Source: Plicaturopsis crispa FD-325 SS-3 (taxonomy: Eukaryota > Basidiomycota > Agaricomycetes > Amylocorticiales > Amylocorticiaceae). Taken from it: 64,000 nt of DNA. Below are positions 2,560-59,605 of this stretch, piece by piece (the first letter of the stretch is position 1; the number at the start of each line of letters is the position of its first letter). The stretch lies in assembly GCA_000827205.1 (NCBI GenBank), contig KN832560.1:1702320-1766319 (forward strand). Direction: 5' to 3'. The notes beneath the pieces were generated by a model. The model saw only the letters and a program-made list of their open reading frames with translations. It did not search any database and was not told the DNA's origin. The position numbers and the translations under genes are program-made.

Positions 2560-2899
2560 GTGTCCCTTTGATTGAGGTGTACACCGGCGGTGACGGCCAT
2601 GCGTGTACTTGGGCCGAAGTGCTCGTAAAGTCGACATATTTATCCACCACTGGTCGTCTCAGATATGTCCATGACGCATGTAGCCAGTGCAAGCGTCTAC
2701 TTGCGGGGTCGCTTGTCGAAATCAGCAAAACGTCAGCGCCTTTCCCAATGTGCAAGCCCGCTCGCACAAACCAGCCCGCGTACTCCCCCGAGCTCAGACC
2801 CATCGTTGTCCGTGCTTTGGCCGTCCATGCAGGTGCGCCGTATCAGTATCTTCTGCGTCGACCCTGTTTACAACGGCTTCTATTTCCCCGGATGGTAAT

Positions 2900-3180
2900 A
2901 ATCTCTTTGTTCCCTTTGGCTCGTTCCTCGGGTTCTGTGGACAAAACGGACAAAGCGAGCGCCCACAAACTGTCTCAGAATATCGAGGTTAGGCGATAGC
3001 CCCTGAGTAACCGTGTATATAAGGCTGCCCTCCTCCCTCCAACTCTACTACCACTGCTTTCTTTCCTCCCCTCATCTCCTCCCCGGTCAAGTCTTGTCTC
3101 TTCTGCTTTCGTGTATCCTGGCTTGCGCTCTCTCTGGGTCACTCGTTTAGGATCTCTACAACAGGTGAGTTATTTTGTGG
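2900..3180 (+). promoter_or_regulatory. Promoter-like block and donor-like motif of repeat unit A
   Basis: Conserved parts are: the words GTGGACAAA and CCCACAA; GCCCCTGAGT; TATATAAG at 3016-3023 (TTTAAA or TTAAAA in most other copies); about 40 bp later a pyrimidine tract containing CCACTGCTTTCTTTCCTCC; then ACAGGTGAGTTAT near 3167. Equivalent blocks occur in B (about 5690-5950), C (32770-33060, minus), D (35220-35510, minus), E (44415-44700, minus), F (53470-53750) and G (56300-56520, which lacks the donor-like motif). The spacing resembles a fungal core promoter, pyrimidine-rich start region, short first exon and 5' splice site. Transcription is inferred. Confidence 0.5.
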
Positions 3181-3299
3181 CGTTTGCGGTGGCGTCGCGC
3201 TGAATGGCTGGTACACCCGTTAGGACGGCCGACTGTGCGATGCCGCACAAGACGGTGAAGACCTTGGACTTCAAGACCCTGCGCTACAGGACCTCAAGA

Positions 3300-3965
3300 C
3301 TTCAAGATCTCGCGCTCCCATCCCAAGTAGGCTCTGGTGAAGGCAAGACCGTCGGAGCGGGCGGCGCGTGGATTTATTGGACGACTTCGGACTGGCCTCA
3401 AGACTGCAAGACGGCGCTCCCATCCCTATATTGTGGGCTCTGGTGAAGGCAAGACCGTCGGAGCGGGCGGCACGTGGACATCGACGACGCTGCAAGACGT
3501 CAAGACTTCAAGTCCCCGCGCTCCCATCCCAATTATGTGGGCTCTGGTCGTTGGAGCGGACGGCAATTCTGGATCCCTGGACGACGCTCGACCGCCCCAC
3601 AAAACGGTGAAGACCGTGGACCTCAAGACGGCGCCCCCATCCCAATTTTGTGGGCTCTGTTCAAGGCAAGACCGTTGGAGCGGACGGCGTGCGGATTTCT
3701 TGGACGACTTCGGGCTGGCCTCAATACTTCAACACGGCGCTCCCATCCCAGTCATGTGGGCTCTGGTCAAGGCAAGTCCGTCGGAGCGGGCGGCACGTGG
3801 ATTTTGACTTCGGAATGGCCCTTCAAGACCTCAAGACGGTGTGGTGCGCTCCCATCTCTGGTGAAGGCAAGTCCGTTGGAGCGGGCGGCGCGTGGTTCCC
3901 CTGGACGACCTCCAATTGGCCTCAAGACCGCAAGACGGCGCCCCCATCCCAGGTTATGCGGGCGG
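3300..3965 (+). repeat. ~105-bp GC-rich minisatellite in repeat unit A
   Basis: About six units plus a partial one, spaced 103-110 bp, each carrying a version of CTCTGGTGAAGGCAAGACCG followed by TCGGAGCGGGCGGC, CTCCCATCCC and CAAGAC words. All three forward frames are partly open because of composition, and the reading frame shifts from unit to unit, so it is not a coding repeat. The same unit occurs about four times in D, eight in E, one to two in C, F and G, and as a remnant in B. Confidence 0.85.
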
Positions 3966-4704
3966 CACCTCTGGCTCTCTAGGCTCTTCTCTGGCTCTCA
4001 ACACCTCAACACTTTGGCCGTGCTCGTTTTCTGCATCTTGGCGACTCTCGTGGGCTGGCCGGTACTGATTTTGTTCTGGGCTCGGCAGCGAACCTTGGCG
4101 ACCTCCTCGCTGGACATATTCAACTTTTTCGGCGACATCTTCAGTGGCTGGCCGCTTGCTCTTGTACTAGGCGACGTTACTGTGCGTTTCTCTGGCACCG
4201 TCTGACTGGCTTCTCTGGGCGATATCCAGCATCAAGGTGGCGCGTTCGCCATAGAACCAAACTCACACGCATCGGTACGGCGGTCACATTTTTTGTCGAC
4301 GCAACGCTATGAGACTAATATACTTCTTACAGAACAACGACGACCCCTTGTCTACGTCGTGGTGAGTCGTCCTTTCCTCCTTCGTGACTCCCCGGCGCGT
4401 TGCTCCGTTTATATGTACGCCGGTGAGTACTGCACTTAGTATCACTCGCTGTCACCATTTTATGCCCAGCTTCAGGAGTGTCTCTCCGCTCCGCGGTCGG
4501 CTATTCCGCGCATGACTGTGTGGACCGTGGTGAGTGGTCGCATGCCTTCTCGACATTCATCCCTCCTTGTCCAGGTCATCACCACAATTCCCCACCCTCG
4601 CTATACAAGCCTGCTAACGTGCGTTCCCAACCTTTCTGGCACCGTTTGCTGACTGCCCGGACTTTACGTTGGATGCTATATCTGTTCCGTTGTCCCTTCC
4701 TTTA

Positions 4705-4880
4705 TAGCTCTCGCCCTGTTCCTTCTTCCTCGGTGCATTGGTGAACGCATCGCAGGAGAAGGAACACGACGACTTTGCCGCTGCACTCCTGGCTTGGTCG
4801 TCGAGGGCAACTCCTTTTTTCTTTTTGCTGGCCGTGTCATTCCCATCAGTCGATGTGCGAAGACGCGCCCAGCAAATGGA
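4705..4880 (+). repeat. Conserved 3' hairpin domain of repeat unit A
   Basis: Three consecutive inverted repeats are present. Hairpin 1: 4718-4736 with 4747-4765 (18 bp, two single-base bulges, 10-nt loop). Hairpin 2: 4767-4774 with 4796-4803 (CGACGACT against GGTCGTCG). Hairpin 3: 4824-4831 with 4869-4876 (TTTGCTGG against CCAGCAAA). A T-rich run (4814-4826) separates stems 2 and 3. This is the best conserved part of the family. Structure is read from sequence; expression is unknown. Confidence 0.65.
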
Positions 4881-5030
4881 AATCACGGATCATCTCAGTT
4901 GTTACTCGCTTGCTTCGAAGCTTTCTGTATGCCTCTCCGATATATCGTACTGTGTATTAGCTGTGGTACCGGTCTCTTTTGAGTGCCTTTCGTGTAACCT
5001 TGCGCTTGACTTTTACTTTTCGGCAGGCTT

Positions 5031-7290
5031 GGTGGCTGGCCTATGTTTGTGCGTGCTTGGCTACAGCCTCTCGTTCGTTGCTCCTCTTCGCAACGTAAAA
5101 AAACTTGGTTGTGATCCTGAGCTCCAGAGGCACTGCATATGTGGCTGCCTACAGTATCTCCTGAGTGCGCATATGCACTGGTACGTCACGGTTTCTCCAA
5201 TAATTTGGAAAGTTTATATGAAGTTGACGTTGTCATAGTAGATGCCCTGCAGAGTCACGAGTCTGCACCCTTTGAAAGCTTTACGCCGCATACGAACTGC
5301 TTTCCAAATACATATATTGTTTGCATGTAGGCTGTCTGAGCTGCGTGGACAGCTCTCTGCGCGCTTCTGTGTACGTGAAATGGACGGTGCGTATGGACGT
5401 CGGCTTGGTATGGCGTACTTATCACCATCACGGACCCATGTTCGCATACTCTATATGCATTTGGTGCGCAATCCAAAATATGCATGCGATGGCAAGCGCA
5501 AGTACCAGAGGCCGCAGTGCGTCTGTGTATCACGCTGTATATCGACTTCCGGGTCTCAAACGGTCAAATTGCCGAAGTGCAGCTTTGACCATCGTTCACG
5601 GTGCGTCGTCCTCGAGGTTGCCTATCGACCCTGTTAATGCGTCCTTCTATTTCCAAAGATAGTATTATGTCCACATATGCATGTGGCAATGCTCGCATTG
5701 TCCCTTTCGGACTGTGGACAAAGGGTGCGCCCACAACTTGTCTCGGAATTTCGCAGTCAGCCGAAAGCCCCTAAGTGCCCACCTTAAAAGCGCTGCCCTC
5801 CAGTCAAATTCGTCCACCACTGCTCTCTTTCCTCCCCCATCTTCTCCCAGTCTTCTCTTGTCTTCTCTAGTTTTGCTGTGGATTTTCTCAATCTACTTGG
5901 GTCATCTCTTACGACGTCCGACAGAGTACCTACATCAGGTGAGTTATCTTGTGGCGTTTGCCGTGGCATCGTGCTAAATGGTCAGTACATCGTTCAGGAT
6001 GCCCGACTTTGCGATGCCACACAAGACGGTGAGAAATTTGGATATGAAGGCCGCGTTCCCAATCCGCGGAGGGTCTAGTCTTCACAGCGGGCGCTACTCG
6101 TGGATCCTTACTCGGCACTCTGGAAACATCTCAAGATGATCGTCTGTGCTATGTCTCGTCTGGATCTGGATCTAGGCGACTTTCGTAGGCTACATTTCTG
6201 GCCCTTCCGCAAATTTCTCACTGTCGACTTCTTCTCGATTTCTTCCGTGTGGCGCTCTTACTGGCGACATCTCAAAAGGCTCTCGTTTCTGTCTCTCCTC
6301 TAGTCTGCACAATGGTTCCATCTCTGGTGGTGCCTTCTTGCTTTCGTCCTTACTCATCTCAAGGTGCCCTCGTTGTGTTTGTCTTCTGCATTTACTAGGC
6401 GAGTCTCGTACACTCCATCCTTTTCTGCGGCAACGGCTTGGGAGGCTTTGGCGACTCTGCTACAGTTCCCTATCCTCGCGTCTATTCTCTTCGAGCTCTC
6501 GGCGACTTTGCTTTCGGGCTGGTTCTGGTTCTAAATTTCCTTCTCTGGCCTACGCGACAGTCTTCGGCGATTTTCTTTCTTTCTGGAAACACTTGCTTGC
6601 TTTCGTCTTTACTTTGGCCTACTTTCTTGGACGACATAAGAGGTCGCTCTGGCTAGGTCCCTTTTCGATTCAGGCGACATACTGGGCGATTTCGACCACA
6701 AGGCGACAAGGTTGACGACGTCGACGGCATCCGAAATGTCTCATGGGGACGTTGTTGTGAGTCATCCCTGCCTCTCTTCTTGACTGATGGGTCCTTTGCC
6801 TTCGCGCCCATATAGAGACGAGCACTGCGTTATCTAATTCGTTTTCTGCGACGCAATACGTGAGTTTTCACCAGGTGAGTGCCCTGCATTAAAGCGTCCG
6901 ATTGCTCAACTTCTACCCACTCTGCCTGCTTGATCCCGTGCATGACATCGTACGTTCCACATGCTCTTTCGTTACTGAACATTCTTTTTGTAGGCCATCT
7001 ATCTCTGATACGCGATCATACTTCGGTACGTTCTAGAATTGTCCGCACCCGTTTGCTGAACGCCGGACTTCGTCGGATGCGCCTGAGCATCGCTTCTGTC
7101 GTTCTTTTCTTTACAGCTCTCGCCCTGTTCCTTTTGCCTCGGCGCATTGGTGGCCGCGCCGCAGGAGAAGGAACACGATGACCTTGTCGCTGCACTCTTG
7201 GCTTGGTCGTCGAGGGCACCTCTTTTTTTCTTTTTGCTGTCCGGGTCATTCCCATCAGTCGATGGCGAAGACACGTCTAGCAAATGGGAA
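5031..7290 (+). repeat. Repeat unit B (second of pair A-B)
   Basis: Begins with the unit-start motif (ATGTTTGTGCGTGCTTGGCT, near 5040, followed by CTCTCGTTCGTTGCTCC) that also starts C, E, F and G. About 700 bp later come the promoter-like block (TTAAAAGCGCTGCCCTCC near 5786) and ATCAGGTGAGTTATC near 5935. The 105-bp minisatellite is reduced to a remnant (about 6030-6090). The centre is made of the second decayed repeat (GGCGACATCTC, CTCTCGT words). It ends with the hairpin domain 7115-7288, 345 bp upstream of the RAD7 start codon and on the same strand. Confidence 0.75.
7115..7288 (+). repeat. Conserved 3' hairpin domain of repeat unit B
   Basis: Hairpin 1 arms are 7127-7145 and 7156-7174. 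Its apical part reads CGGCGC/GCGCCG where most copies read CGGTGC/GCACCG, so both sides of one pair changed together. Hairpin 2 is 7176-7183 with 7205-7212 (one G-T wobble). Hairpin 3 is 7233-7240 with 7277-7284, with a wobble and one terminal mismatch. Confidence 0.65.
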
Positions 7291-7633
7291 GAATGCTTTC
7301 ACGGTGTCTAAAAAATCTGCAGGATCTGCAAAGCCTTTCATATCATATATGTCGGTATACGATTGGTTCACTACATTAGTACACCGACTCGGACTGAGTG
7401 TAGCTCGAGCCGTAGTCCAGCCACTTTTCGTCTCCTCATGTGAACCTGGTGACCTTCCCTTTTGGGCTTTTTTTTGCCGACATTCTATTCCCACGGTCCT
7501 TAGTCGCGGTCGCGCAACGCGTCAATTAGCGCTCTTGTCCTCTCAGGCTCTCACTTCATACCGATAGAACTGGCACTGGATATCTCCTCAAACTGCTGTT
7601 GCATACTCTCACAATCTTTATCGTGTCATAAGT

Positions 7634-30790: not shown

Positions 30791-31218
30791 GCGCGACGTT
30801 AGCTATCATGTATCATGTTTATTTTGGGTCTTATGGGAATTGTATTGTTAGCTTCAAAAGTGCGCCGCAGTAAAATCCGCAAGTGCATGCAGGAGTAATT
30901 GTTTGAGCTGATCGTCAAGATGGTCCGCTTTTCGTCAAAGCAAACAGCAATTCTATTCGCAGGCTAGCAGCGTCGAACCCGAGCTCCGAGTCCTACAAAT
31001 ACATTGAATGGGGTTGACGGTGTATAAGGGCACTTCGGTCGGTTATTGGGAGTCTGTGAGCAATCACAAAGGCATTCGCAATGGCGGACCGGCTATACAT
31101 TGACGAAGACACGACACGAAAGGGGGATGCATGATACGCGTTAAGTATACCTGTGACACCATGAACCAGCAGGTCATTGGATACCCCTGGGGATTTGCGG
31201 AACTTAAACTCCTCTGTT
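30791..31218. other. Intergenic, 3' flank of expansin-like gene
   Basis: Contains the probable 3' UTR of the gene ending at 30790, then unassigned sequence up to the 3' hairpin domain of repeat unit C. No frame of interest. Confidence 0.45.
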
Positions 31219-31395
31219 CCATTTGCTAGACGCGTCTTCGCCATCGACGGATGGGAATGACCCGGCCAGCAAAAAGAAAAAAGAGGCGCCCTCGACGACC
31301 AAGCCAGGAGTGCAGTGGCAAGGTCGTCGTGTCCTTCTCCTGCAGTGCGGCCGGGAATGCACCGAGGCAAAAGGAACAGAGCTGGAGCTGGAAAG
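31219..31395 (-). repeat. Conserved 3' hairpin domain of repeat unit C
   Basis: On the minus strand, hairpin 1 keeps CGGTGC/GCACTG (one G-T wobble), hairpin 2 is CGACGACC/GGTCGTCG, and hairpin 3 is TTTGCTGG/CTAGCAAA (wobble in place of G-C). All three stems survive although the flanking repeat body has drifted. Confidence 0.65.
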
Positions 31396-33655
31396 AAAGG
31401 GACGACAGAAGGGATGCTCGGGCGCATCCAACGAAGTCCGGGCGGTCAGCAAACAGGAACGGAAAAGGTGGAAACACACTGGGTTGTATAGCTGAGACCC
31501 AATGCTTGCATGGCCGTAGATTTGCGATGACGATCTACGAAGAAGAAAAAGGTAAGCGACGAGAAGACATACGAATACTCACTAAGTCTCATCGTAGCGT
31601 GATCGAGGGAGTAGTCGCCAGCACACCGAGGGGCATATTTGATGAGATGCGCGCCGACTTGCCAATAATACGAAAGAGTGCGATGGGAGTCCGCCTTCCG
31701 AAAATTGCAGCGCAGCCCTGAGGTGTCGTCTAGTACAAGAACAAACAGCCAGCCACTTGAGAGGTCGTTGAAAAGCACGCAGCAAGAGTATAACGAGAAA
31801 ACTTGTCGCACGAAGAGGTGGCGCCGGGCACCGTCGCCTAGGCCAGGAGAACAAGCAGAGAGCGAAGGGGCGGGATGTCGACTAGCAGTGACGAAACAAA
31901 TCCAGAGCCCCTCCAGACACTGTTAGGAAACATCCTAGAGAAAGAGAGAAGAGGCCTCAAGCAAGAAAAGAGCCGAAGACGAATAACGTAACCAGAAGAG
32001 AGCTAGAAGTGTCGCCCGCTCTGATGTACCAGTCTTCACAATCGCAATAGCGCTACGTCTCGAGGTCCTAGGCCTTCACCGTCTGGTCCGTCAGTTCAAA
32101 GTCGCCCGGTAGCAGTACCCAGAGTAAGCAGGAAAACGAGAACAGTCAGATAAAGCGAGAGACAGACAGCTACAACGAACAAGCATAGAATGAGTATCTC
32201 GAGGTGTTGCCAGAAAGAACGCCACAGTAGTAAGACAGATGTCGCCAGTAAGGAAGGGTGTCGCCAAAGCCAGAGGATAGACAGGCAGCGAGAGCTAACG
32301 CAGAGCAATACAGCCTTCGAAGATCGCCTAGACGGAGCATGCACCAAGACTTCGGATGTTCACAGAAAAACCGCCGCAATAGCTCGAGAAATGTCGCCAG
32401 TAAAGAAATCGCCAAAGACCGCCGCCCAAACCAGATAGATAGCGCAGGCCCAGAGAAGAAGGGAGCAAAAAGAGTCGCCTAGACGCCAAAAAGGAACATA
32501 GCCAGACAAGAACGTAGACAGCCAGACGCCGATCGCTCCAGGGACTTGCTTTGACTAGGGGATGGGAACGCGCGGTCTTGATGTCTTCATCGTCTTGTGA
32601 GGCCGGTTCGAGGTCCAGAAGAGTGTTTCCCGCTCCAACGGTCTTGCCTTCACCAGAGCCTACCAGGGATAGGAGCGCGCGGTCTTGAAGGCTTGAAGGC
32701 TTGATGGGCAGACGAGGTCGGGCAGGCCAGACTATGTAGCAGATATTCAGCGCGACGCCACCGTGAACGCCACAGGATAACTCACCTGCGGTAGACATCT
32801 TCGACGAGTGACCCAGAGAGAGCGCAAGCCGAAATACGAAAAAGTAGAGACAGGTGTTGGGCCGGGAGGAGATGGGGGGAGGAAAGAAAGCAGTGAAGGA
32901 CAAGTGCGACGGGGATGGCAGCGTTTTAAAGGCGGCGACTTAGGGGCTATCGGCTAACACTGTGACAAGTTGTGGGCGCGCGCTTTGTCCACCTTGTCCA
33001 CAGGAAGTGGAGCATGAGCCAAAGGGGACAATGTGATAGCGACCATCTGTGGACAGATTACTATCTATAGACATGGAAGGCCACGTTAACAGGGTCAATG
33101 GAGAAACACGAGGAGGACGCACTTGGGACAATGGGCGGTCAAAGCGCAGGGTCCGAGCTCGTGTTACGAGGAGAACTTGAGCAAGTCGATGACTCAGCAT
33201 ACAAATTTCAGGATGTGCTTCGCGGCTACTGCTGGCATTCGCCTTCGCATATGCAGTTCATTTTCCGTGTTCGACGAGGCAAAGGTGCGATGGATTTCTA
33301 TGATGGAAGGGGTCGTAGAGGTTATAGATCATACCAGGGCATGCATATAATTATGATATCTTTTGAGGCGATAGACGCACAGCGCACGCGCCAAAAGCAA
33401 GAAAGACAATTCGTAGATCAAGTCTACGTGGCGCCACCGATGTGCACCCTGTCAACTCTGCACTGCTAGAGATAAGTTCATGTATAGCGGCGTAACTCTC
33501 GAAGAATTGTCGCGCACCCAATGATTGTACACATGCGGGCAATATCACAGCGACGTTGTGTATAAGTCGCAGCTCCTTTCCAGGATTGAGTTTGGTTGAG
33601 TAAGATCGGAGGAGCAACGGCCGCAGGAACGTCGGAGGCCGCAGGCAAATATGGA
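31219..33655 (-). repeat. Repeat unit C (downstream member of pair D-C)
   Basis: Read on the minus strand it starts with the unit-start motif near 33655 (TGTTTGTCCATATTTGCCTG). The promoter-like block follows about 700 bp later (CTTTAAAACGCTGCC near 32930), then GCAGGTGAGTTATCC near 32790, about two minisatellite units (32530-32700), a long centre of the second decayed repeat (many CGCC/GCGAC words, 31600-32520), and the hairpin domain 31219-31395. No coding frame. Length is about 2.4 kb. It is more diverged than A, D and E. Confidence 0.75.
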
Positions 33656-33850
33656 CAAACATCTATCAGCCACTGCGTTTCGCCGGGCGCCCTGCCACGG
33701 ATTGGCCACGGACGAACTCAAACGAAAGAAGGGAAAAATCAAAAAAGGAATTGCAAGCTAATGCAGAAGCATTTCGAAGGGATATCGCAATTAAGAGTGC
33801 CTCACAAAACTAATGAAATTTACGAAAAAGCAAGCTCCAATCTAGGTTCT

Positions 33851-34030
33851 CCATTTGCTGGACGTGTCTTCGCACATCGATTGATGGGAACAACCCGGAC
33901 AGCAAAAAGAAAAAAGAGGGAGCCCTCGACGACCAAGCCAGGAGTGCAGCGGCAAGGTCATCGTGTTCCTTCTCCTGCGGCGCGGCCACAAATGCGCCGA
34001 GGCAGAAGGAACTGGGCGAGAGCCGGAGAT
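33851..34030 (-). repeat. Conserved 3' hairpin domain of repeat unit D
   Basis: On the minus strand, hairpin 1 reads CGGCGC/GCGCCG at its tip, sharing with unit B the double change relative to CGGTGC/GCACCG in E, F and G. Hairpin 2 has CGATGACC/GGTCGTCG with a T-G wobble. Hairpin 3 keeps seven of eight pairs. Confidence 0.65.
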
Positions 34031-34749
34031 CAAAGGACATTTGAACGAATAGGCATCCAACATGAAGTCCGGGTAGTCAGCAAACGGTGGCGGAAAGGTC
34101 GGGAACGCACAGTAATAGGCCTGCATAGCGGCGCTAGTGAATTGCGATGACGACCTAGACAAGGACGGATAAATGACGAAAAGGCATGCGAGTACTCACC
34201 ACAGTCCACACACGGCTGCGTGTGGAATAGTAGAAGGTGGAGTGGAAAGACGCTGGAAAAGCTAGACGTGAAAAGGTGACAACGAGTCATAGATGCAGTA
34301 CTCACCGGCGTATATACGAGCGAAGCAACGCGCTGGTGAGTCACGAAGGAGGAAAGGACGACTCACCACGAGGTACGAGAGGTCGTCACGATTCTGTAAC
34401 AAATAGAAGCTTTGAGTCTCATAGCGCTGCGTGACAACAATGCGACCAACGTACCAATGCATGCGAGTTTGATGCCATGTTGAATGCCCCATCTTGATGC
34501 TGGATATCGTCCAGGAAGAGCGCCTCGGATGAAGCCAGGGAAACGCCGAGTAACGTCGCCTAGAACAAGAACAAACAGCCACTTGAGATGTCGCCGCCAG
34601 AGTAGCATGTCGCCAGCAAGGAGATCACCAAGGTGCGTTGCCGAGCTCAGGAAAGAAACAGTAGCAACCAGCCCAGGAGAGTCGCCTAGATGCAGAGAAG
34701 GAGAACCGCGAGAGCGTCTTGAGATGTCGCCAGCCAGAGAAAACTAGAG

Positions 34750-35130
34750 AGCCAGAGGTGCCGCCCGCTCCGACGGACTTGCCTTGACCAGAGCCCACAG
34801 AATTGGGATGAGAGCGCCGTCTTGCGGTCTTGAGGTCTTGCAGCGCAGTCGAGGTCCACGTGCCGCCCGCTCCGACGGACTTGCCTTCACCATCGACTTG
34901 AGATGAGAGCGCTGGGACTTGAGGTCTTGAGGGCTGGTCGAAGGTCCAGATCCACGCGCCGCCCGCTCCGACGGTCTTGCCTTGACCAGAGCCCACTGAA
35001 CTGGGATGGGAGCGCCGTCTTGAGGTCTTGAGGTCTTGAGGCCAGCCAAAGGTCCAGATCCACGCGCCGCCCGCTCCGACGGTCTTGCCTTCACCAGAGC
35101 CTACTTGGGATGGGAGCGCTACGTCTTGAA
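34750..35130 (-). repeat. ~105-bp minisatellite in repeat unit D
   Basis: Four units with CCGCCCGCTCCGACGG at about 34753, 34862, 34960 and 35065 (98-109 bp spacing). Same unit as in A and E. Confidence 0.85.
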
Positions 35131-35840
35131 GTCTTCACCACCTTGTTCGGCATCGCAAAGTCGGGCGTCCTGAATGATGTACCAGCCACTCAGCGCGACG
35201 CCACCGTAAACGCCACAAAATAACTTACCTTTGGTAACGATCCTAAACGAGTGAACCAGACAGAACGCAAGCCAAGAGACACGAAAGCAGAAGCGACAAG
35301 ACTTGACCGGGGAGAAGATGAGGGGAGGAAGAAAGGCAGTGGTGGTCGAGTTCGAGGGAGGAGGGCATTATATACAGGGTCACTCAGGGGCTATTAGCTG
35401 ACCTCGAAATTCTGAGACAGGTTGTGGGCGCTCGCTTTGTCCATTTTGTCCACAGAACACGAGCAGCGTGCCAAAGGGAACAAGGAGATAATTACCATCT
35501 GGGGATAGAAGCATCGATTAACAGGGTCGACGATGAATATATATGAACACGACGTACCTGCATGGACGGTCAAAGCACTGCCGAACGGGCTCAAGCTCGG
35601 GGGAGGAGACGGGTTAGATAACGTTGGTCCAAGCGCAATGACCGGGCGTGTGCATTTCGACCATTGGCATGCACGACTGCGGCATTATATGCACCCCCGC
35701 CCACATATTCCACTTATTCTTGTGCGCTGACGGCGCGCGGCATTGCATTTCGGAGGCGGCCAGTGATGTACATTGGGGAGCGTGTATGTCAATTTTGCGC
35801 GCCCTGTGGCCTAAGTACACGCTTGCCGTGCATACCCTGA

Positions 35841-37526: not shown

Positions 37527-38850
37527 TGTAGTGTCAAGGAGGCACTGGAATTTGCATGATCAATGCTTATGAGGGCGTTTTCAAGAACACCGCAGCGCAC
37601 AGAGAGCAAAGGAAGCTACAGCGCCGGCCCGCATGGGAGCTCGGGACAATATTGACATGCAGGGGAAAGAGCACGAGATGCGCGCTCGGAAAAATCTCGC
37701 GAGTTATTGTGTATGAATGAAAGAATCTTGGAAAAGGCACTGGATTGTTAGATTGCATATGCACGGGCGTCTGGTGAGGCGGTCAGCCAGTCACGGCCAA
37801 CGCAACGCGTGCACGCACATAAAATAAACGCAGCGTGCCTATACCATGGGTCTCGATGCATTTTACGCGGGGATGATGCAGCAAGACGGTATCCGACGTT
37901 TGATTTGAAAACCGCCTACATAGAGGGGGATAAATCAAGTGCCGTTTATCGTCGTTGTTGGTCCAATCCCAGGATAGCATGCACACGACGTGAGACCAGT
38001 GGTCGCGGAATGGAAAGCAAGATGGACGACCAGGGAAAACGCACTATATAGTGCCCCGAACAACCCAACATCGTTGCGCCTACACTCCATCAAGAGTCGG
38101 ATGGACACAGGGCCGCTAGCCTCGATCATCGTTCGGGCACGAGACGGTCGATAGACAACCAGCAGATGTGAAGTCGCGAAAGACGCAAGGCGAACATCTT
38201 GAACACCTGTGAGAGACGCGACGGTGCAAGAGCGGTCGCTGGAAGCAGGGCACTCTGGCGCGGATAGATCGTGGACGGGAATGTCTCTACGCGGTATAAC
38301 GGCGTGGCCATAAACGGGGACGGAGAAACACCTTGTGCTCAGTAGCCAGCGTAAACATGGAGGTCCAGAGCTTTGCGCCAGCCAGCAGCAAGTTCGCTCA
38401 AGTTCGCCGTGCAGGTCCAGGTCCGTGCGCATTCGGTTCAGTCCGAAGATGTGGCATGTCGGGTAGAATGCGGTTACTACCTGCGTCGTCCGGTGATGCT
38501 GTCCAGCAGTTATACGTAGTCGTGGCACTGACTTGAGAAAGCAGAGGAAGAGAAAGACGACCGTAAGGCTTTGCTTAGGGGTTATTTACCCCAGAATTTA
38601 CCTCCGACGCCTCGAGGCTCACAAGACACAGAGGCGCATGCGGCGGCGAGCGCTGCCAACTTCACCGCAACCTTCTGCAACGACCGCGCTACACTACGTT
38701 GACCTCGCATACGGTGAACAGACCCAAAAATCTCATATAAATACCGACTCTATCGTACACACACCACACAGCCAGCCCACAACCCAATAATTGTCCGCAA
38801 AGATCGTCCATGTCTGCACCAGACCACTTAATATCTCCAAGGCCTCGCGC
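37527..38850. other. Intergenic, pectinesterase upstream region and spacer
   Basis: No gene is supported. A 197-codon frame (37935-38528 minus) has no domain and unlikely composition. A plus-strand TATA-like ATATAAATA near 38737, followed by a CA-rich stretch, points toward the convergent reductase 3' end. The last 100 bp resemble the flank downstream of the second reductase, so they belong to the tandem duplication. Confidence 0.45.
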
Positions 38851-40135
38851 TTACGCTGTTTCCTGAGGGTGGGCGATCAGCTTAAGGCCACTGACTTTGT
38901 CCGCCTTCAGTCTGTCTAGGCCAGCCGGGATACCAGCAAGCCCGCCAGGGAGTACCTCGACTTTGTTCGGCTGCACAAGACACACGCACACCGTTCAGCC
39001 GCTAAACCCTCAAGCATCAGAGTCACCGCGCGACGCACCTTAATCGCACCCTCGCTTAGCAGCGCCCCCAGGCGCTTATACAAACTCACCCCCAGCGCCC
39101 TTGCCGTCGGAATGTTCACATTCCCCACCACGCCCACCACGCGCACCCCCTTCCCCTCCGCCTCCGCCACACTCGGCGGCTGAGTCACCACGAGCGTGCC
39201 CCCCGGTGCGAGCACGTCATACGCCGTCTGCTGCGTGTCCGCGAGCGCGACCGCGTCGTACGCCACGCTGATCGCACTACCCGCGGCGGTGAGGGCGGCG
39301 GACAAGATGGAGGGGGCGGGGAGGTGCCGGTCGATGAAGTGCGTGGCGCCAAGGGAGGTGAGGTGCGCGGCGTGTGCGGGGGAGGCGGTGGTGATGATGG
39401 GGGAGAAGCCGGAGAGCGCGGCGAGCTGGATTGCTATATGGGGAAGAACGATGACGATGAGGATATGGGGGAGAGAGGGTGAGTGAGTGGATGGAGAGAG
39501 GACGTACCGAATTGGCCGACCGAGGAGGACCCGCCGGGGATGAAGATGGGCTGGCCGGCGTACTTGCCTCGGCCTGCTTCCTCCCAGGGATATTCGAGGC
39601 CAGCGCCGGAGCTGTGGTATAAACCGATCGCAGCGGTCGCGAGTGCCTGGGGGAGAGAGGCAGCTTCGTTGAACGAGATGTTCTCGGGTAGCTGTATAAG
39701 GGCGTAAGAAAGAGGTTCTGGGTATATCCAAGGCTTGATGTACCTTGGCGACGATTTCAGCGGGCGCTACCGTGTACTGCTGGAAGGTGGCCTGCTCGTT
39801 GGTGAACCAGCCTTGGGAGACCCTACGCGTAAGGCATCGTCAATGAAGCGCATCTGCGACGGCGGTAGGGAGACTAACACCCGGTCGCCCACTGCGAACC
39901 CAGTCACGCCTTCTCCGATCGCCTCGACAGTGCCCGACGCGTCCCCGCCGAGCACAGCTGGGTATGTCTCGACGATATACCCATATGCTTGGATCTTCCA
40001 GTCGACGGGGTTGAGCGCCGTCGCGAAGATCTTGACGAGCAGTTCGCCGGGGCCAGGTTTCTGGATGTCCTTCGGGCCAACTTCGTATACGCCGTGCTTG
40101 CTCTTCAGATACAGAGCCTTCTGTTGGGCGGACAT
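38851..40135 (-). CDS. MDR-superfamily oxidoreductase (zinc-less, ToxD/enoyl-reductase-like), copy 1
   Basis: Start 40135 (MSAQQKALYLKSKHGVYEVG), stop 38851-38853 after HPQETA. About four introns, about 350 residues. N-terminal GroES-like barrel with [30 protein letters not shown] and FAVGDRV. The Rossmann part has the nucleotide loop [11 protein letters not shown], then ATHFIDRHLPAP and AYDVLAPGGTLVV. No cysteine/histidine zinc set is seen, so it belongs with quinone/enoyl reductases using NADPH rather than with zinc alcohol dehydrogenases. Fungal relatives act in secondary metabolism or detoxification; the substrate is unknown. The neighbouring copy upstream has the same gene structure. Confidence 0.87.
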
Positions 40136-40920
40136 TGCGATTGGTGGTGTTGGAAGCGTTGAAATCGAAGGATGAATGCGGGGAATGTCAGAACGAAGAT
40201 GTTGAGGAGCCGTGAGCGTTCAGTTGTTATAACTGCGAGTGCAGTGGGCAATTATGCATGCACTATTAGTAGGGATGCAATCCGGGTGCAGTGAGTGGGA
40301 CTGTGCGCGTGTTATTGAGCGCAGCATCGCACACAAATCGCACAGCTTGAGAGGGACCATCAGGAACAGAGGAGAGTTCAATATATCGCAACTCGCATGG
40401 AAATCAGGAGCAAACTTGGGTCCAGTTCCTCGTTCGCCGTTGTCTGCTGCCGGATCTCAGTGAGCGTCTGTCAGGTACCTACCCTTGCCTTTCACGATGG
40501 AGGATGGCTCAGACGAGTATAATCGATATCGCCGGGATATCACCGGGGCAGTTCACCATGTACTGGCCCCCTCAATCTTCGTGTACTCCAGCCACCAGTG
40601 TGGGCGACTAGACGGTCGGATCTCGCGTTTATGGGCACGATCTAGCTGCGGAGACTGATACGACACAGCTGTCGCTATGGAGGATGCACTTAGAAAGTGG
40701 TGGGGACCCGAGCAGTCAGGATTATCTTATCTTAGACCCGGTGCCTCGAGGCTCGCACACGGTAAGGAGGCCTGATAACTTCATGTGTATTATCGTTTCC
40801 CTTGTATCCACGATGCAACTGGCACACAATTTCACAAGATCGATTCGCACATATGTCTGCGCCAAACCACTTTAATAGTACAATTTCTTGTCCAACGCCC
40901 ATATATCCGAGTCAACTCAC
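40136..40920. other. Spacer between tandem reductase genes
   Basis: Upstream region of copy 1 plus downstream flank of copy 2. Short stretches match the flanks of the other copy (CCTCGAGGCTC near 40745 and 38610; ATGTCTGC(A/G)CCA near 40850 and 38812), showing that the duplicated unit extends about 150-200 bp past the stop. No other gene is seen. Confidence 0.5.
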
Positions 40921-42194
40921 TCAAGCAGTTTCCTGAGGGTGCGCAATCAGCTTCAGTCCACTGACTTTGTCCGCCTTCATCCTGGCTAATCCATCCGGGA
41001 TACCAGCGAGCCCGTTCGGGAGGACCTCGACTTTGTTCGGCTGCATAACACATAGAGATATAAATTCTGCAGCCAAGGCCAGAGCTACGAGACACACCTT
41101 GATCGTACCGTCGCGCAGCAGCGACTCCAGCTTCGCATACAGGCTCACCCCGAGCGCCCTATTCGGCGGCATATTCACATTCCCAGCCACATTCACCACA
41201 CGCACCCCCTTCCCTTCCACCTCCTTGTACGCAGGCGGCAGCGTGAGCACGATCGCGCCGCCGGGCGCGACGACGTCGTACGCGGTCTGCTGCGTCCCCG
41301 CGAGCGAGATCGCGTCGTACACGACGCTGATGGGGCGCCCGCCGGCGTTTGCGGTGACGGCGGCGGCGATTTCGGGTGCGGGGAGGTTGCGGTCGATGAA
41401 GTGGGTGGCGCCGAGGGAGGTGAGGAATGCGGCGTGTGCCGGGGAGGCGGTGGTGATGATGTTCGAGAAGCCGGAGAGCTTGGCGAGCTGGATGGCTGTG
41501 TCCAAAAACAGTGATGAGGAATTGGGAGATGGGTACGATGTGAAAGGGGGACGAACCGTATTGGCCCACCGACGAGGACCCGCCGACGATGAAGATCGAC
41601 TGGCCGGCGTACTTGCCGCGGCCGGCCTCCTCCCAGGGGTATTTCAGGCCAGCGCCGTCATCGTTGTACAGACCAATTGCGGCGGTGGCGAGTCCGAGCG
41701 GGATAGATGCTGCTTCATCGAACGAAACGTTCTCGGGTAGCTGTCATTTATGTTAGAAAGAGCTTTCGGCTAGGAAGAGGAAGGTCCACGTACCTTTGCG
41801 ACAATCTCAGCGGGGACTACAGCATACTGCTGGAACGAGGCCTGGGTGTTGGTGAACCAGCCTTGGTGAACGCTGCGTGCGTGCGCCGTCGTCAATACAA
41901 TGCATATGCAACGGTGATACACAGTAAGGGAGCTTACACCCTGTCGCCCTTGGCAAATCCGACTACGCCCTCTCCGACCGCCTCAACCGTGCCAGAAGAG
42001 TCCGTCCCAAGTATGGCGGGGAAGTTCTCGAGGAAGACCCCGTACTTTTGGATCTTCCAGTCGACGGGATTGAGCGCCGTCGCGAAGATTTTGACCAGCA
42101 GCTCGCCCTTTCCCGGCGTGGGGATATCGTTGGGTCCTACTTCGAGGGCGCCTTGCTTGGCTGTCAACCACAGGGCTTTTTGTTGAGGAGACAT
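40921..42194 (-). CDS. MDR-superfamily oxidoreductase (zinc-less, ToxD/enoyl-reductase-like), copy 2
   Basis: Start 42194 ([20 protein letters not shown]), stop 40921-40923. It has the same exon layout as copy 1: [30 protein letters not shown] and FAKGDRV, then the cofactor loop [23 protein letters not shown] and the end [14 protein letters not shown]. By eye the two proteins are about 70-75% identical, and the intron positions correspond. Cytosolic NADPH-dependent reductase by family; substrate unknown. An upstream TATA was not identified. A trace of repeat family sequence begins about 400 bp upstream. Confidence 0.87.
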
Positions 42195-42604
42195 TGCGTG
42201 CGACCGGGGGAAGATGGTTCAAGTAAAGAGGAGTACGGGGAAGGTCAGAACGATATTTTTGTCGGGCACCGTTGGCATCCTGCGGTTTATATGCATGCGC
42301 TAAACGCTCCTGTACTGGCCAACTGCTTGGTAAATCTCTACAGCCCTGCTTTGCAAGTTCTCCAGTGCTTAGTAGGCGCTTTGTACATTGCCGGGAAACT
42401 CGGAGTTAACACTGCTGATGTATATTTGAATCCGCGCGTCATTCTACTGACAAAGAGCGGGCCGTGTCAATGCAGAATACACGACGTGCACTGTGTATCA
42501 TGGTTACGAGGCGTCTGGTTTCTGGAAAGCTGAGCAATTCGTAGATTCGTAGACGTGCGGCGGATGATGAATCGTGGTCCGTGGATGTCGATGACTGAGG
42601 AGAA

Positions 42605-42815
42605 CTGGTACAAAAATACGCCGGCAGGCAAAGCTGCAGGCAAACATGGACAAATACAGTGTGGCGGAAGGTACCAGATAACTTGAAGGTACGCACGCAC
42701 GCACAAACTATATGCAACAGCAAAATAAGGTCAAGGAGAAAGGATACGGGTCAAACAAACAGTCCGCAAAACTGACAGTAGCCCTTTATAAACGAAAGCG
42801 ATGCAATCCGTGATT
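42605..42815 (-). repeat. Start of a truncated next unit after repeat E
   Basis: Following the hairpin domain of E on the minus strand, the unit-start motif recurs near 42650 (TTTGTCCATGTTTGCCTGC), as it does between A and B, D and C, and F and G. Only about the first 100 bp can be followed, so the next unit is missing or decayed. Confidence 0.5.
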
Positions 42816-42995
42816 TCCATTTGCTGGACGCGTCTTCGCACATCGACTGATGTAGACGACCCGGCCAGCAAAAAGAAAAAAGGAGGTGCCCTTGACGACC
42901 AAGCCAGTAGTGCAGCGGCGAGGTCGTCGTGTTCCTTCTCCTGCGGTGCGGCCAGGGATGCACCGAGGCAGAAGGAACTGAGGCGAGCTGGAAAG
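42816..42995 (-). repeat. Conserved 3' hairpin domain of repeat unit E
   Basis: Minus-strand arms GTTCCTTCTGCCTCGGTGC and GCACCGCAGGAGAAGGAAC pair over 18 bp with two bulges. Hairpin 2 is intact except for its outermost pair. Hairpin 3 is TTTGCTGG/CCAGCAAA. Confidence 0.65.
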
Positions 42996-43554
42996 GAAAG
43001 GATGATCGCAGGCGCATCCGGGCATTCAGCAAACAGGCGCGGAAAGGGCGGCGACGCACGTGCGTATACCATAAGGATAGTCACGCTTGACAGTTGTCTG
43101 CGAGCTTGAGAACGACCTACAGCAAGACTGGTAAGACTGGTAAACGATAAGCGATATAAAATTACTCGCCGGCCTCGACAGAAGGGAGACTCGCGTTACC
43201 GTGCTGTCACAAACGGGGACGTTGAGTCCCGTAGCATAATGATGAGGAAACACGCCGCTAACGTACCGATACATTGTCTGGACGATCTCGCTGGTGCTTA
43301 GACAGAGATATCAGTAGTCCTCTTAGGGAGTCGCCAGTAGTGTCAAGAATAATCGGCCAGCCTTTGAGATGTTGCCGAAAAAGAAAGAGACGTCGCCAGA
43401 AAGTGATTGGCCGAAGAGCGTCGCCGAGCCCAGAGAAGAAACAGAAGCAACTAGCCTAGAAATGCAGCCCACGAGAGTCGCCTAGATGCAAAGAAGAAGC
43501 AGAGCGAGAGCCTCTTCTGATGTCGCCAGCCAGAGATGAGCCGAGAAAGCCAGA

Positions 43555-44350
43555 GGTGCCGCACGCTCCGACGGACTTGCCTTGACCAGAACCCACTGAA
43601 TTGGGATGGGAGCGCCGTCCTGAGGTCTTGAAGCTCCATTGGGGTCGACGCGCCGCCCGCTCCGACGGACTTGCCTTAACCAGAGCCCACAAAACAGGGA
43701 TGGGAGCGCGTCTTGAGGTCTTGAGGTCGGAAGTCGTCCGGAAGATTGACGCGCCGCCCGCTCCGACGGTCTTGCCTTCACCAGAGCCGACACAACTGGA
43801 TGGGAGCGCTGTCTTGAAGTCTTGAGGCCAATCCGAAGTCGAGATCCACGTGCCGCCCGCTCCGACGGTCTTGCCTTCACCAGAGCCGACACAACTGGGA
43901 TGGGAGCGCACCGTCTAGAGGTCTTGAGGTCCAGTTCGAAGGCGTCCAGAGATCCAGAGGTGCCGCCCGCTCCGACGGATTTGCCTTGACCAGAGCCGAC
44001 ATAACTGGATGGGAGCGCTGTCTTGAAGTCTTGAGGCCAGTCCGAAGTCGAGATCCACGTGCCGCCCGCTCCGACGGTCTTGCCTTCACCAGAGCCGACA
44101 CAACTGGGATGGGAGCGCACCGTCTTGAAGTCTTGAGGCCAGTCCAAAGTCGTCCAGGAGATCCACGCGCCGCCCGCTCCGACGGACTTGCCTTGACCAT
44201 TGTCTTGAGATGGGAGCGCAGTGTCTTGGAGTCTTGCAGCGCCATCGGGGTCCAGGTGCCGCCCGCTCCGACGGTCTCGCCTTCACCAGAGCCTACGTGG
44301 GATGGGAGCGCTGGTCTTGAAGTCCAGGGTCTTCACCGTCTTGTGCGGCC
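43555..44350 (-). repeat. ~105-bp minisatellite in repeat unit E
   Basis: Eight units with GCCGCCCGCTCCGACGG or one-base variants at about 43559, 43651, 43756, 43854, 43964, 44064, 44170 and 44267 (92-110 bp spacing). Confidence 0.85.
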
Positions 44351-45238
44351 GCGCCGAATCGAGCGTCCTAGACGGTGTACCCGCCATTAAGCACGACGCC
44401 ACAGCAATCGCCACAAAATAACTCACTTGAGGTAGAGATCCTGATCGAGTGACCCAGACAGAGCCGAAGCCAAGAGACAAGAGGGCAGCAGAGAGAAGAC
44501 TTGACCAGGGATGAGATGAGGGGAGGAAAGAAAGCAGTGGTGGTCGAGTTGGATGGCAGAGGGCAAGGCTTTAAAGGCAGCACTCAGGGGCTATGCGCTG
44601 ACATTGAAAACTCCGCGACAATTTGTGGACGCACGCTTTGTCCACAGTACCAAGGGGACAAAGGGCGCATCGCCATATGCTTCTGTGGACAAGATCGTTA
44701 TCTGCGGAGATGGAAGATTTTGTGATCAGGGTCGATAGAGAAGCGTGATCCATGAGGACAACGCGCCTAGTGTGGACAATGGACGGCCAAAGCATGGCTG
44801 GTCGATACAAGCGCTTTGGGCATTTTCGCAATTCGGCCGGTCGAGCACCACGGCTAGCGGTGCCAGCACTCGGAGCTATCATGCATGGCATGAATGTTTC
44901 ACGTACGCAGTGCCCGATGATGTAAGTATGCTCGACGAAAGGTCCGCAATCTCTTCACGCTTACCAGGATCTGTTCTTTTCCAGTATGCAGGACGACACA
45001 GCGCTGAGGAAAACTGGTAGTTTTCAATTTGAAACATAGTCTGTGAGGTGATTATGTATGTGAATGTGCAATGTGCAGACGCGTCGACTTAGCAGACTCT
45101 GCAGAACATACCAGCGGCGTCAGTTCGTAGCTAATCCGCAGAACCGTTACGCACCTTGTACGCAGTATCATAGCCAGCAGCGATACAAATTTTGCCTTAG
45201 CCAGTGTCACAGCTTCAAAGTTTGAATCTGGTACCGAG

Positions 45239-52809: not shown

Positions 52810-55670
52810 GCCGCCACCCCCGTGATGTTTGTGCCTGTTTGACTGCAGCCTCTCGTTCGTTGCGCCTCCACTAAAAAAAACTTTGTATCAGATTCATATG
52901 TTCCGTTACCGTACCGGATTACCAGTTGAGCCTTGTAACTGCGACGCTCAAAGTCAGTAATGTTTCTGGCTGTGATACTGCATGCATGAGTATAGAGACG
53001 AGGTGCGCTGTGATTTTGTGGTTCATGAGTTAAACTGACGCCACTGTGTACAGACCAGCTGTGTATTACTAGAGTCAACAGGTCTGCCAGCTTGCACGTT
53101 CGAATATTCACCGCAGTTCAGTATGAATCACTGCGTGTCAAGTCACAAATAGTGAGGATGCTTATGGGCCCGTGTACTATCAATGCATGGCGTAAGGATT
53201 CCCGCCCTGCGTCCCTTTCCATTAAAATCGAGTTTGCGTGCACTCGGTACGTGAAACCAGCATCGAAGGAACGTGCTACCCGCGGACCATATTGCTCGAA
53301 TAGCCCCGTATGTCAACTTGCCAAAGTACCAAAATGCCCAAGCGCTGGTAACGACGGCTTAGACCCTATCATGCTTTGGCCGGCCATTGTCCTACATAGG
53401 TGCGTTCGCCTCATGTATCTCGCTTCGTCGCGGAACCTGTTAACAGAGTCTTCTATCTCCCTAGATAACAATCTTGTCCACAGAAGCATGTGGTAATCCT
53501 CCCTTTGTCCCTTTGGCGCTGTGGACAATGGGCGCGCCCACAACTTGTCTCGGAAATTCAATGTCAGCCGAAGGCCCCTAAGCATGCGCTTTAAAAGCGC
53601 TGCCCTCTCCGTCCAATTCGTCCACCACGGCTTTCTTTCCTCCCCCATCATCCCCTTTGCTGAGTCTTGTCAGGTCTGTCTTATAGTCTTATGGCTTGCG
53701 ATTGTCTGGGTCTTTGTTCAGCTTGAACGCCACATGTGAGTTGTCCTGTGGCATTTTCGGTCACGACGTGCTGAATGCCTTGGAATGGTCTAGGATGCCT
53801 GATTTTGAGCTGCAAAACAAAACGGCGAGGCCTACCCATCTCAAGTCCACGGTGAAGACGAATCCATCGGCGCTACCGGTACCTGGATCTATTGGACTTC
53901 GGACTGGCCTTTAAACCTCGACTTCGCGACCAGACGCTCTCATCTCAAGTCGAAGATCAAGACGAGTCTGGCGGAGCGGGTAGCACCTCTGGACGACGAC
54001 TTTGCCCTCAAAATACGAACCTCAAGATCGCGCTCCCATCCTGATCCCGCAGGCGATTCTCTCGGCTCTCTGGTCTATTCTTTCTGGCAACACCTCAAGA
54101 GGCTCTCGCTGTGTGGCGTCTCGCTTTGCTCCAGCTCTCATCGACTTTTCTGTACGACGGTCTCTTCTCGGTTCATTCTAGCTGTCTCCGGCCTGGGCGG
54201 CAGTCTCGAGGGCATCGTTACTGGCAGCGTTCGTTCTAGGGTCTCGCCGTGATCGTTCTCTGGATCTAGCCGCTGGTCTTATGCTACAATCGTCTCGGGG
54301 TTGGGTCTTGCTATGCTTTCCTCTGGCCTGCGCGACGGTCCTCGGCTCTTCTCTTGGGAAACATGTTTTCGCTTTCGATTTTGGCATCCAGGCGACTCTC
54401 GTACTCTTCTCCGACTAAGCCCTCTTTCCTCTCCTCGCTTACAATCTCATCGCGCTGCTGCATTCCTTTGGCAACATCTCAAGACCCTATGGCTGATTTC
54501 TTTCTCTTCATCTTGGCGGCTCTCGTGTACTAGCTTTTGATCTGAATCGACATCTCCCGAGATTTTGCTCTCCTGGCCGGCGCGACGCTCTTGGACGATC
54601 CTCTGTCTAACACTTCTCGTTTCGTTTGGTTCTCGCGCTTCAGCCGTCCTTTCTGGTGACATCTCAAGTTGCTCTCGCCATGCTCGTTACCTGGATCTAG
54701 CCCACTGTCGCCTGCTGCAAGTCTATCTGGATTAGGTCTGGCCGTCGTACAACATTCCTAGTAGATCTGGCCCTATATTTTCTCGTGCTAGGCAACACTC
54801 CCTGGATACGCACTGGCAAAACGCGAGGATCCTTTTCGACCGCCAGGCAATAAAGCTCAATCCAGCTACCTGATACACGACGACGGCTACGGCCTCTGAT
54901 ATGGTTCATCTGGACGTTATGGTGCGTCGTCTCTGCCTCTCTTCGGGACTCAATGCCTTTTTTCTTCGCGGACTTTGAGCACAGCACTCTCTGGAAGTCG
55001 ATGCAATGCACCTTATTTGTTTTCCACCTCGAGGACTGTATAGCACTTGGTGAGCTCTCTACCTCTCGCCGTCCGCTTGCTGAACCTCTATGCATCCGGC
55101 CTGCTGAATTCCGCACACTGGCATGAACGTGGTGAGTTCCATGATCCCTGCTCTTAATTTAACAATCTCCCCGTAGGTCGTCCACACCGATCATTGCTAT
55201 GCGAGCATATCTATTCCGGTGCGTTTCCGTCTTCTCCGCACCCGCTTGCTGAACACTTGGACTACGTCGGATGCACCTGCTCATTCCTTCGGCCGTTCTT
55301 CTCTCTCCAGCTCGCCCAGTTCCTTCTCCCTCGGTGCACTCGTGGCCGCACCGCAGGAGAAGGAGCACGACGACCTTGCCGCTGCACTCCTGGCTTGGTC
55401 GTCGCGGGCCCCTCCTTTTTTTCTTTTTGCTGTCCGGGTCGTTCCCATCAGTCGATGTGCGAAGACGCGTGCAGCAAATGGAGAATCGAGAGCGCGAAAT
55501 GCTTCTGCGTCAATTCTCCAATCTACTGTATATATTGCCGCACTGATGTATACTACGTCGTCTCTCCAACTCTGAAAGACGGTGTACAGACTTGGGTGTG
55601 CCTGAAATGCAATCTAATGCAATATTGTTCCGTTGAAGATCGCCAGTCGGACTCGGAGGACGCAGTGGCT
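52810..55670 (+). repeat. Repeat unit F (first of pair F-G)
   Basis: Starts with the unit-start motif near 52820 (TGTTTGACTGCAGCCTCTCG), about 170 bp after the alcohol dehydrogenase stop. The promoter-like block is about 775 bp later (CTTTAAAAGCGCTGCC near 53590), then ACATGTGAGTTGTCC near 53734, one or two diverged minisatellite units (53810-54040), a long second decayed repeat (54060-54720), GGTGAG-bearing segments (54920-55230), and the hairpin domain 55309-55482. About 2.85 kb. No coding content. Confidence 0.77.
55309..55482 (+). repeat. Conserved 3' hairpin domain of repeat unit F
   Basis: Hairpin 1 arms (GTTCCTTCTCCCTCGGTGC and GCACCGCAGGAGAAGGAGC) pair with one wobble. Hairpin 2 CGACGACC/GGTCGTCG is perfect. 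Hairpin 3 TTTGCTG/CAGCAAA has seven pairs. Confidence 0.65.
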
Positions 55671-58031: not shown

Positions 58032-58143
58032 GAGAACGTCGTTGGCGACGTAGAACGACCCGGGGCACTGACGACGACAGCGGTAAAGGGTCTTAATCCT
58101 CGCTGAGGCCGGAACAACGACCGCGAGCCCAGCTGGGGGTGCG

Positions 58144-58145
<2 letters not shown>

Positions 58146-58181
<36 letters not shown>

Positions 58182-58182
58182 C
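58146..58182. repeat. (GTT)n microsatellite
   Basis: About eleven consecutive GTT triplets at the right edge of the inserted segment in unit G. Confidence 0.9.
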
Positions 58183-59424: not shown

Positions 59425-59600
59425 TCCAGCTCGCCCAGTTCCTTCTTCCTCGGTGCATCCCTGGCCGCACCGCAGGAGAAGGAACACGATGACCTCGCCG
59501 CTGCACTCCTGGCTTGGTCGTCGCGGGCACCTCCTTTTTTTCTTTTTGCTGGCCGGGTCGTTCCCATCAGTCGATGTGCGGAGATGCGTCCAGCAAATGG
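59425..59600 (+). repeat. Conserved 3' hairpin domain of repeat unit G
   Basis: Hairpin 1 GTTCCTTCTTCCTCGGTGC/GCACCGCAGGAGAAGGAAC, hairpin 2 CGATGACC/GGTCGTCG (T-G wobble), hairpin 3 TTTGCTGG/CCAGCAAA. All three stems are intact although the unit body is disrupted. Confidence 0.65.
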
Positions 59601-59605
59601 AAATT

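Follow-up and report, generated by a model that had tools for sequence, protein, structure and literature searches.

The window, by which we mean the whole 64-kb stretch of DNA analysed here, contains seven copies of a domain of ca 172 nt whose fold is conserved, belongs to the sense strand and coincides with splice-like signals. The reading that best explains these observations is a structured 3′-terminal module shared by noncoding RNA genes that form an unclassified multicopy family in a fungus. In the more specific form of this reading, to which we give somewhat better than even credence, the domain would serve, as predicted, as the last exon of spliced noncoding transcripts, presumably made by RNA polymerase II, and act as a folded 3′-end module that stabilises or anchors them. 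Among the options offered by the initial annotation of this DNA, that of a functional non-coding RNA end appears to fit best.

Seven copies and the units they end

The initial annotation had described seven dispersed copies of a structured domain of ca 175 bp, and a profile built from these copies recovers all of them as full-length matches in the 64-kb window, with E-values of 5.9e-54 to 7.6e-59 and no eighth copy. The other 16 rows of the profile search (E 2e-5 to 8) are due either to hairpin arms that match these same seven copies on the opposite strand or to chance. We refer to the copies on the plus strand as A, B, C and D and to those on the minus strand as E, F and G; in the initial annotation they were lettered by coordinate. 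It should be kept in mind that the sample consists of seven copies from one window, which are homologous to one another.

For copy A (plus strand), the profile match covers 4710–4881 and the predicted structured terminal exon 4708–4881, as judged from this match, an acceptor AG ending at 4707 and a fold z-score of −7.1. The predicted last intron spans 4619–4707, with the donor at 4619, CTGA at 4649 and the acceptor at 4707. Unit A (2775–4881, plus strand) includes a promoter-like region, a TATA-like box at 3016–3022, a first donor-like site at 3165, subrepeats of ca 100 bp and the terminal exon. On the same strand, the predicted terminal exon of copy B lies at 7117–7289 (profile match 7119–7289, predicted last intron 7026–7116) in unit B, 5601–7289; that of copy C at 55311–55483, identical to its profile match (intron 55219–55310), in unit C, 53320–55483; and that of copy D at 59430–59602, also identical to its profile match (intron 59360–59429), in unit D, 56186–59602, the middle of which looks interrupted. 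On the minus strand, the predicted terminal exon of copy E is at 31217–31387 (profile match 31385–31217, intron 31479–31388) in unit E, 31217–33170, and that of copy G is at 42815–42987 (profile match 42987–42815, intron 43059–42988) in unit G, 42815–44837. The domain of copy F, on the same strand, is at 33849–34023 (profile match 34020–33849) in unit F, 33849–35613, with a donor-like site at 34110 and CTGA at 34080. The units are arranged in head-to-tail pairs, A-B, F-E and C-D, with G alone.

In all seven copies a GTRNGT donor-like site is located exactly 30 nt before a CTGA[AC] branch-point-like motif, with one of each in the stretch searched. An acceptor AG is present a few bases before the domain in six of the copies, in which the predicted intron measures 70–92 nt, while a search for one at the domain start of copy F found none. 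The domain coincides with the predicted last exon. Since the copies are homologous, these splice-like signals reflect conservation and do not amount to seven independent observations. A promoter-like region common to the units is found at the end opposite to the domain, with a TATA-like box seen by eye in 7/7; it is followed by a GTGAGT or GTAAGT site in six units, unit D being the one that lacks this first donor-like site. Both the promoter-like and the splice-like calls are sequence signals, read by eye and by pattern.

The 3′ border of the domain is sharp. In bins of 20 columns, with gaps counted as differences, the identity is 0.80–0.96 inside the domain and 0.70 across the acceptor. Downstream it drops to 0.45 in the adjoining bin and to 0.15–0.35 beyond, and upstream it is at most 0.56, except that the bins of the donor and the branch point reach 0.66 and 0.79, respectively. 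As stated in the initial annotation, each of the seven units ends with the domain. A search for seven polyadenylation-like hexamers within 110 nt downstream gave hits only after copies C and G. The 8 nt that follow CAAATGG are purine-rich (41 of 56 bases), yet their sequence differs between most copies. In folds with 14 nt of flank, these purine-rich bases can pair with the pyrimidine tract and so lengthen hairpin 3.

Some further features of the window can be described here. The promoter-like region (ca 2800–3165 and its six equivalents) contains GGACAA and CCACAA blocks besides the TATA-like box, and an ACAAAG in it presumably recalls the pheromone-response sites of fungal HMG-box proteins. 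Subrepeats of ca 100 bp, GCGCTCCCATCCC...GGAGCGGGCGGC, occur in units A (3280–3960), F (34746–35135) and G (43544–44330), with fewer in E (32560–32700); for 18 copies of them from units A, E, F and G, picked from 34 loose pattern hits, no convincing common fold was obtained. Unit D contains, at ca 57000–58190, a stretch of ca 1.2 kb that by eye is unlike the rest and has a minus-strand open frame without a Pfam match, as well as a (GTT)11 repeat at 58149. Finally, the segments 38831–40196 and 40901–42253 form a tandem duplicate of 73% identity, in which open frames in both members match Pfam ADH_zinc_N.

The dispersed, multicopy occurrence and the abrupt 3′ boundary could also be accounted for by a mobile element, SINE-like or LINE-like, in which the structure would be the 3′ recognition end that serves the copying. 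This was the other option put forward in the initial annotation. However, the copies have kept splice-like signals and promoter-like regions, which is unlike copying through a spliced RNA, and no shared tail or simple repeat is visible after the domain in any of the seven. The similarity upstream fades gradually, with no single edge, and six of the seven units stand in head-to-tail pairs, as expected of duplication at the DNA level. Intronless copies with a tail, the mark of a retroposed element, are not found among the seven. A role of the structure in copying is thus not supported, and we consider this option quite improbable.

The fold and the constraint on its pairs

We now describe the structure of the domain. 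Copies A and B, folded alone, give the same shape, with fold z-scores of −7.36 and −4.88, respectively, and the consensus structure of all seven copies (alignment A2) has 58 pairs. The z-scores of the minimum free energy on the sense strand are −4.8 to −7.1 in the seven copies, and 0 of 100 dinucleotide shuffles are as low in any of them; on the antisense strand the z-scores are −2.5 to −5.6. In the numbering of copy A (plus strand), hairpin 1 is found at 4718–4765 with 18 consensus pairs, hairpin 2 at 4767–4803 with 12, and hairpin 3 at 4820–4880 with 24, and the conservation stops where hairpin 3 stops. The loop of hairpin 2, GCUGCACUCCU, shows a one-base difference in 3/7 copies. Hairpin 3 is led into by a U6-7CU5 tract that is kept in 7/7 copies (U6CU5 at 4815–4826 in copy A).

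The three consecutive hairpins reported earlier for each copy are present in all cases, with a mean helix probability of at least 0.79 in each of the 21 folds computed, in which every one of the seven copies was given 0, 30 or 100 nt of the flank downstream. In addition, when the domain is folded alone, hairpins 1 and 2 are enclosed in a three-way junction by a stem of 4 bp, P1, formed by GCCC at 4713–4716 and GGGC at 4805–4808 in copy A. The mean pair probability of this stem is 0.74–1.00 for the exon alone, 0.16–0.98 with 30 nt and 0.03–0.99 with 100 nt of downstream sequence, the stem being lost in several copies once that sequence is included. As the pairing of the hairpins persists in all 21 folds while the closing stem is conditional, we take the three hairpins to be the robust part of the structure. 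In these folding models, only an RNA that stops close to hairpin 3 is likely to form the junction, which is otherwise uncertain.

As to the details of the stems, the G-T wobbles listed in the initial annotation for hairpins 1–3 are all seen in alignment A2, and so is the pair of hairpin 1 that is T-A in five copies and C-G in two, which corresponds to columns 30/45. The two C-G copies, lettered B and D there, are those at 7115 and 33851, here B and F. There are also pairing failures that had not been listed: copy G (42816) breaks four pairs, pair 128/166 is broken in copies B (7115) and F (33851), and copy E (31219) has a one-base deletion in the stem of hairpin 1.

The way in which the copies differ supports selection on an RNA fold of the sense strand, as had been proposed from the sequence at the outset. 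The structure obtained from one copy pairs 93.8–98.8% in the other six, compared to null means of ca 87.7–89.1% when each change is reassigned to another position that carries the same base (in round numbers, 94–99% vs ca 88%). The observed value is reached by 3 of 2000 nulls for copy A and by 0 of 2000 for each of copies B to G. When changes are simulated on the domain tree with the same number per column, the observed fraction paired is reached by 2 of 1000 simulations. Loops indeed drift while stems hold: variable columns make up 22 of 115 paired columns vs 26 of 56 unpaired ones (p = 0.0003), where the consensus structure behind this comparison, as behind the tree-null, covariation and some coding tests and part of the strand tests, was derived from the same alignment. 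The changes in the stems are, moreover, largely of kinds that preserve pairing through a wobble, 15/22 vs 5/31 elsewhere with classes assigned by hand (p = 0.0002) and 14/22 vs 5/31 with strict classes (p = 0.0005). Taken by itself, the ratio of C>T to G>A (11:2 within stems, 4:4 outside them) does not differ significantly (p = 0.15).

Because a G-U pair on one strand is an A-C mismatch on the other, the wobbles point to a sense RNA. The pairing cells amount to 395/401 in sense vs 364/401 in antisense for a structure that was chosen on the sense strand, and with each strand's own folds the leave-one-out pairing is 94–99% in sense and 86–95% in antisense.

Next, we consider the compensatory changes, which the initial annotation had adduced for the fold. 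Two pairs are changed on both sides, and only one of them is clean, namely the pair at columns 30/45 (U-A in five copies, C-G in two). The second, 128/166, is broken in two copies and is U-G in one. The number of such pairs is not above chance, being reached by 150 of 500 shuffles, and since B and F are placed next to each other in the tree of the domains (support 0.919), the clean change from U-A to C-G is perhaps a single event. The argument from compensation is weak. The covariation score and the percentage paired are marginal, with each reached by 24 of 500 shuffles. In the simulations on the domain tree, the fraction paired is reached by 2/1000 (see above) and the number of double changes by 44 of 1000. 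Significant covariation at several pairs was not seen in these seven sequences, which offer little power.

That the hairpins are connected by a linker which is partly single-stranded, in a unit that appears to be noncoding, might also suggest that the last exon holds a snoRNA of the box H/ACA or C/D type, a known ribozyme or some other curated RNA family. Rfam, however, gives 0 matches at gathering score in the 64-kb window, and the 4 matches obtained for 2700–7400 at E-values up to 5 are all far below that score. H/ACA RNAs are recognised by an ACA box and an ANANNA hinge, and C/D RNAs by their C and D boxes. By eye, there is no ACA box near the end of the domain, no ANANNA hinge and no C or D boxes, and we regard a known family as very improbable. 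An origin by RNA polymerase III was set aside because the T-tract falls within the conserved RNA.

Searches outside the window gave little. Pattern scans of viral contigs with three pieces of the domain returned 0, 1 and 3 stretches, and one pattern scan of prokaryote genomes returned 4. The alignments inspected, which cover seven of these eight loci, are all of short length or low score (8 to 13 bits), and we regard them as chance. No match was obtained with blastn against plasmids at E up to 0.001, and Pfam, run on 30 of the 95 open frames in the window, gave nothing that explains the units.

Coding potential and probable exchange between copies

An alternative to a selected RNA fold is that the domain is a protein-coding terminal exon, in which a conserved peptide (majority SFCLGA--AAPQEKEHDDLAAALLAWSSRA) is specified by the first ca 92 nt, the hairpins being incidental. 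One sense frame is in fact stop-free over the first 92 nt in 7/7 copies, and its pN/pS is 0.30, compared to 1.02 and 1.08 in the other sense frames. Synonymous changes account for 14 of 28 in this frame vs 7/25 and 8/25 in the other two. The permutation p-value for this coding-like signal is 0.003, or 0.026 over six frames, and it is 0.022–0.031 if the paired or unpaired state of the positions is kept, which means that the signal, although weak, is not explained by the fold alone. Upstream, an in-frame ATG is present in the unspliced sequence of three copies (D, F and G).

However, the variable columns are distributed as 8, 6 and 10 over codon positions 1, 2 and 3, with little bias towards the third, and no in-frame ATG is found inside the 92-nt block, nor upstream in the unspliced sequence of the other four copies. 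The phases in which the exon would be entered are also in conflict, being 0, 0, 1, 1, 0, 0 and 2 for copies A to G (F without an AG acceptor), and the open lengths vary from 49 to 93 codons between copies. Furthermore, the frames in hairpin 3 differ as a result of the one-base deletion in E, changes in the length of the T-tract and a base of GATG(T)GCG that is missing in B and E, while hairpin 3 is conserved as well as the rest of the domain. We find a coding exon unlikely on these grounds. The earlier statement that a protein is not what is selected is likely to hold, although it has to be qualified for the first 92 nt by the low pN/pS of one sense frame.

Another question is to what extent the likeness of the domains stems from exchange between them. 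The pairwise identities are 0.86–0.93 for the domain and 0.59–0.86 for the promoter. In the promoter tree A groups with F (support 0.999), while in the domain tree it is B that groups with F (0.919). The A and F promoters are 86% alike and the domains 87%, so that the domain of this pair has been conserved hardly more than its promoter. The disagreement of the two trees on F requires either exchange of the domain between copies or convergence, and it appears that two or more of the copies have exchanged their domains. That the F domain (33849–34023) goes with the B domain (7117–7289), and the F promoter with that of A, can be noted as a sign of exchange between dispersed copies.

One could go further and propose that gene conversion alone keeps the domains alike, with the fold as a by-product that has no selected function. 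The uniform identities of the domain, as opposed to the wide range of the promoters, and the grouping of the F domain and F promoter with different copies are in line with this. Conversion, however, is blind to whether a base is in a stem or in a loop a few bases away, and it therefore fails on its own to explain the contrast between 22/115 variable paired columns and 26/56 variable unpaired ones, in stems and loops that are only a few bases apart. The stem changes are also biased towards wobble-preserving kinds. In our judgement, this proposal has only a small chance of being right.

A proposed 3′-terminal module and its likeness to known systems

On the preferred reading, that of a structured 3′-terminal module of a noncoding RNA, each unit would be transcribed, presumably by RNA polymerase II, and then spliced as predicted, with the domain as the last exon. 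The sense RNA would fold into hairpins 1 and 2, which the short stem could close into a three-way junction, and into hairpin 3, entered through the U6-7CU5 tract. Located at the 3′ end of the RNA, the module would stabilise or anchor the transcript and could present a protein, or the tail, with a structured platform that is common to the copies, while the middle of the transcript would be much freer to change. We infer both the making and splicing of this RNA and the action of the module at its 3′ end, and the stabilising function from the position of the domain alone.

A more detailed scenario, which we consider rather unlikely, is that the module acts as a clamp for the poly(A) tail. Polyadenylation would then take place directly downstream of hairpin 3, and the tail would turn back to pair with the U6-7 tract as a duplex, not as a triple helix. 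Hairpin 3 would thereby be lengthened into a closed end, in which the tail is out of reach of deadenylation. Such a clamp would explain why the U-tract is kept while the genomic bases opposite to it vary. When A20 is added after hairpin 3 in silico, the stem is extended in 7/7 copies, by −4.4 to −5.5 kcal mol−1. A U-rich tract at this location is expected to pair similarly, and the calculation is thus consistent with the clamp but is not a test of it.

If the units are transcribed, they would constitute a spliced noncoding RNA family in which the last exon is a conserved folded module. The domain also presents a directly testable unit of 172 nt, with seven natural variants in which the broken pairs are known. 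It raises the questions of how the 3′ end of a noncoding RNA is protected or anchored, and of why scattered copies keep the module so similar when the remainder of the transcript is free to drift.

We have found no description of this RNA family in the part of the literature covered; it may exist under another name. A survey of structural RNAs in fungi (Nucleic Acids Res 2021, PMC8216456) started, according to the accessible part of its text, from five query genomes, none of which is a basidiomycete, the group to which the present fungus presumably belongs. It reports 17 structures, predominantly single-copy, for which at least 3 significant covariations were required. These RNAs resemble the present domain in being structured noncoding RNAs found by comparison of sequences, whereas the domain is multicopy and has so far one compensatory pair. 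Within the basidiomycetes, intergenic noncoding transcripts are documented by the lincRNAs of Ganoderma lucidum (PMC4059649). As far as the available description goes, these are set apart from our units in that no conserved fold or multicopy family is described for them.

At the level of the 3′ end, the closest comparison is with the ENE or MALAT1-type triple-helix elements, which occur also in plants and fungi and in which repeated U-rich tracts form internal loops, as stated in the accessible text of PMC12501189. Like these, the domain has, close to the 3′ end of the predicted RNA, a stable stem with a U-rich tract next to it, and may protect that end. Unlike them, it has a single U-tract, and the opposite strand is AAAUGG plus purines. 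A triple-helix reading of the ENE type was rejected, as the repeated U-rich internal loops given in that text are absent, the domain having one U-tract only.

At the level of the family, the units can be compared to Pinci1 of Phytophthora infestans, for which the available portion of PMC12566771 gives multicopy noncoding polyadenylated transcripts, more than 400 copies, and a length of ca 700 nt for the two that were studied. Pinci1 belongs to an oomycete, and in that portion no conserved structured terminal exon is described, a distinction that is drawn from the description only. The two systems have in common that they are clustered multicopy families of related noncoding transcription units, predicted as such in our case, in a filamentous microbe.
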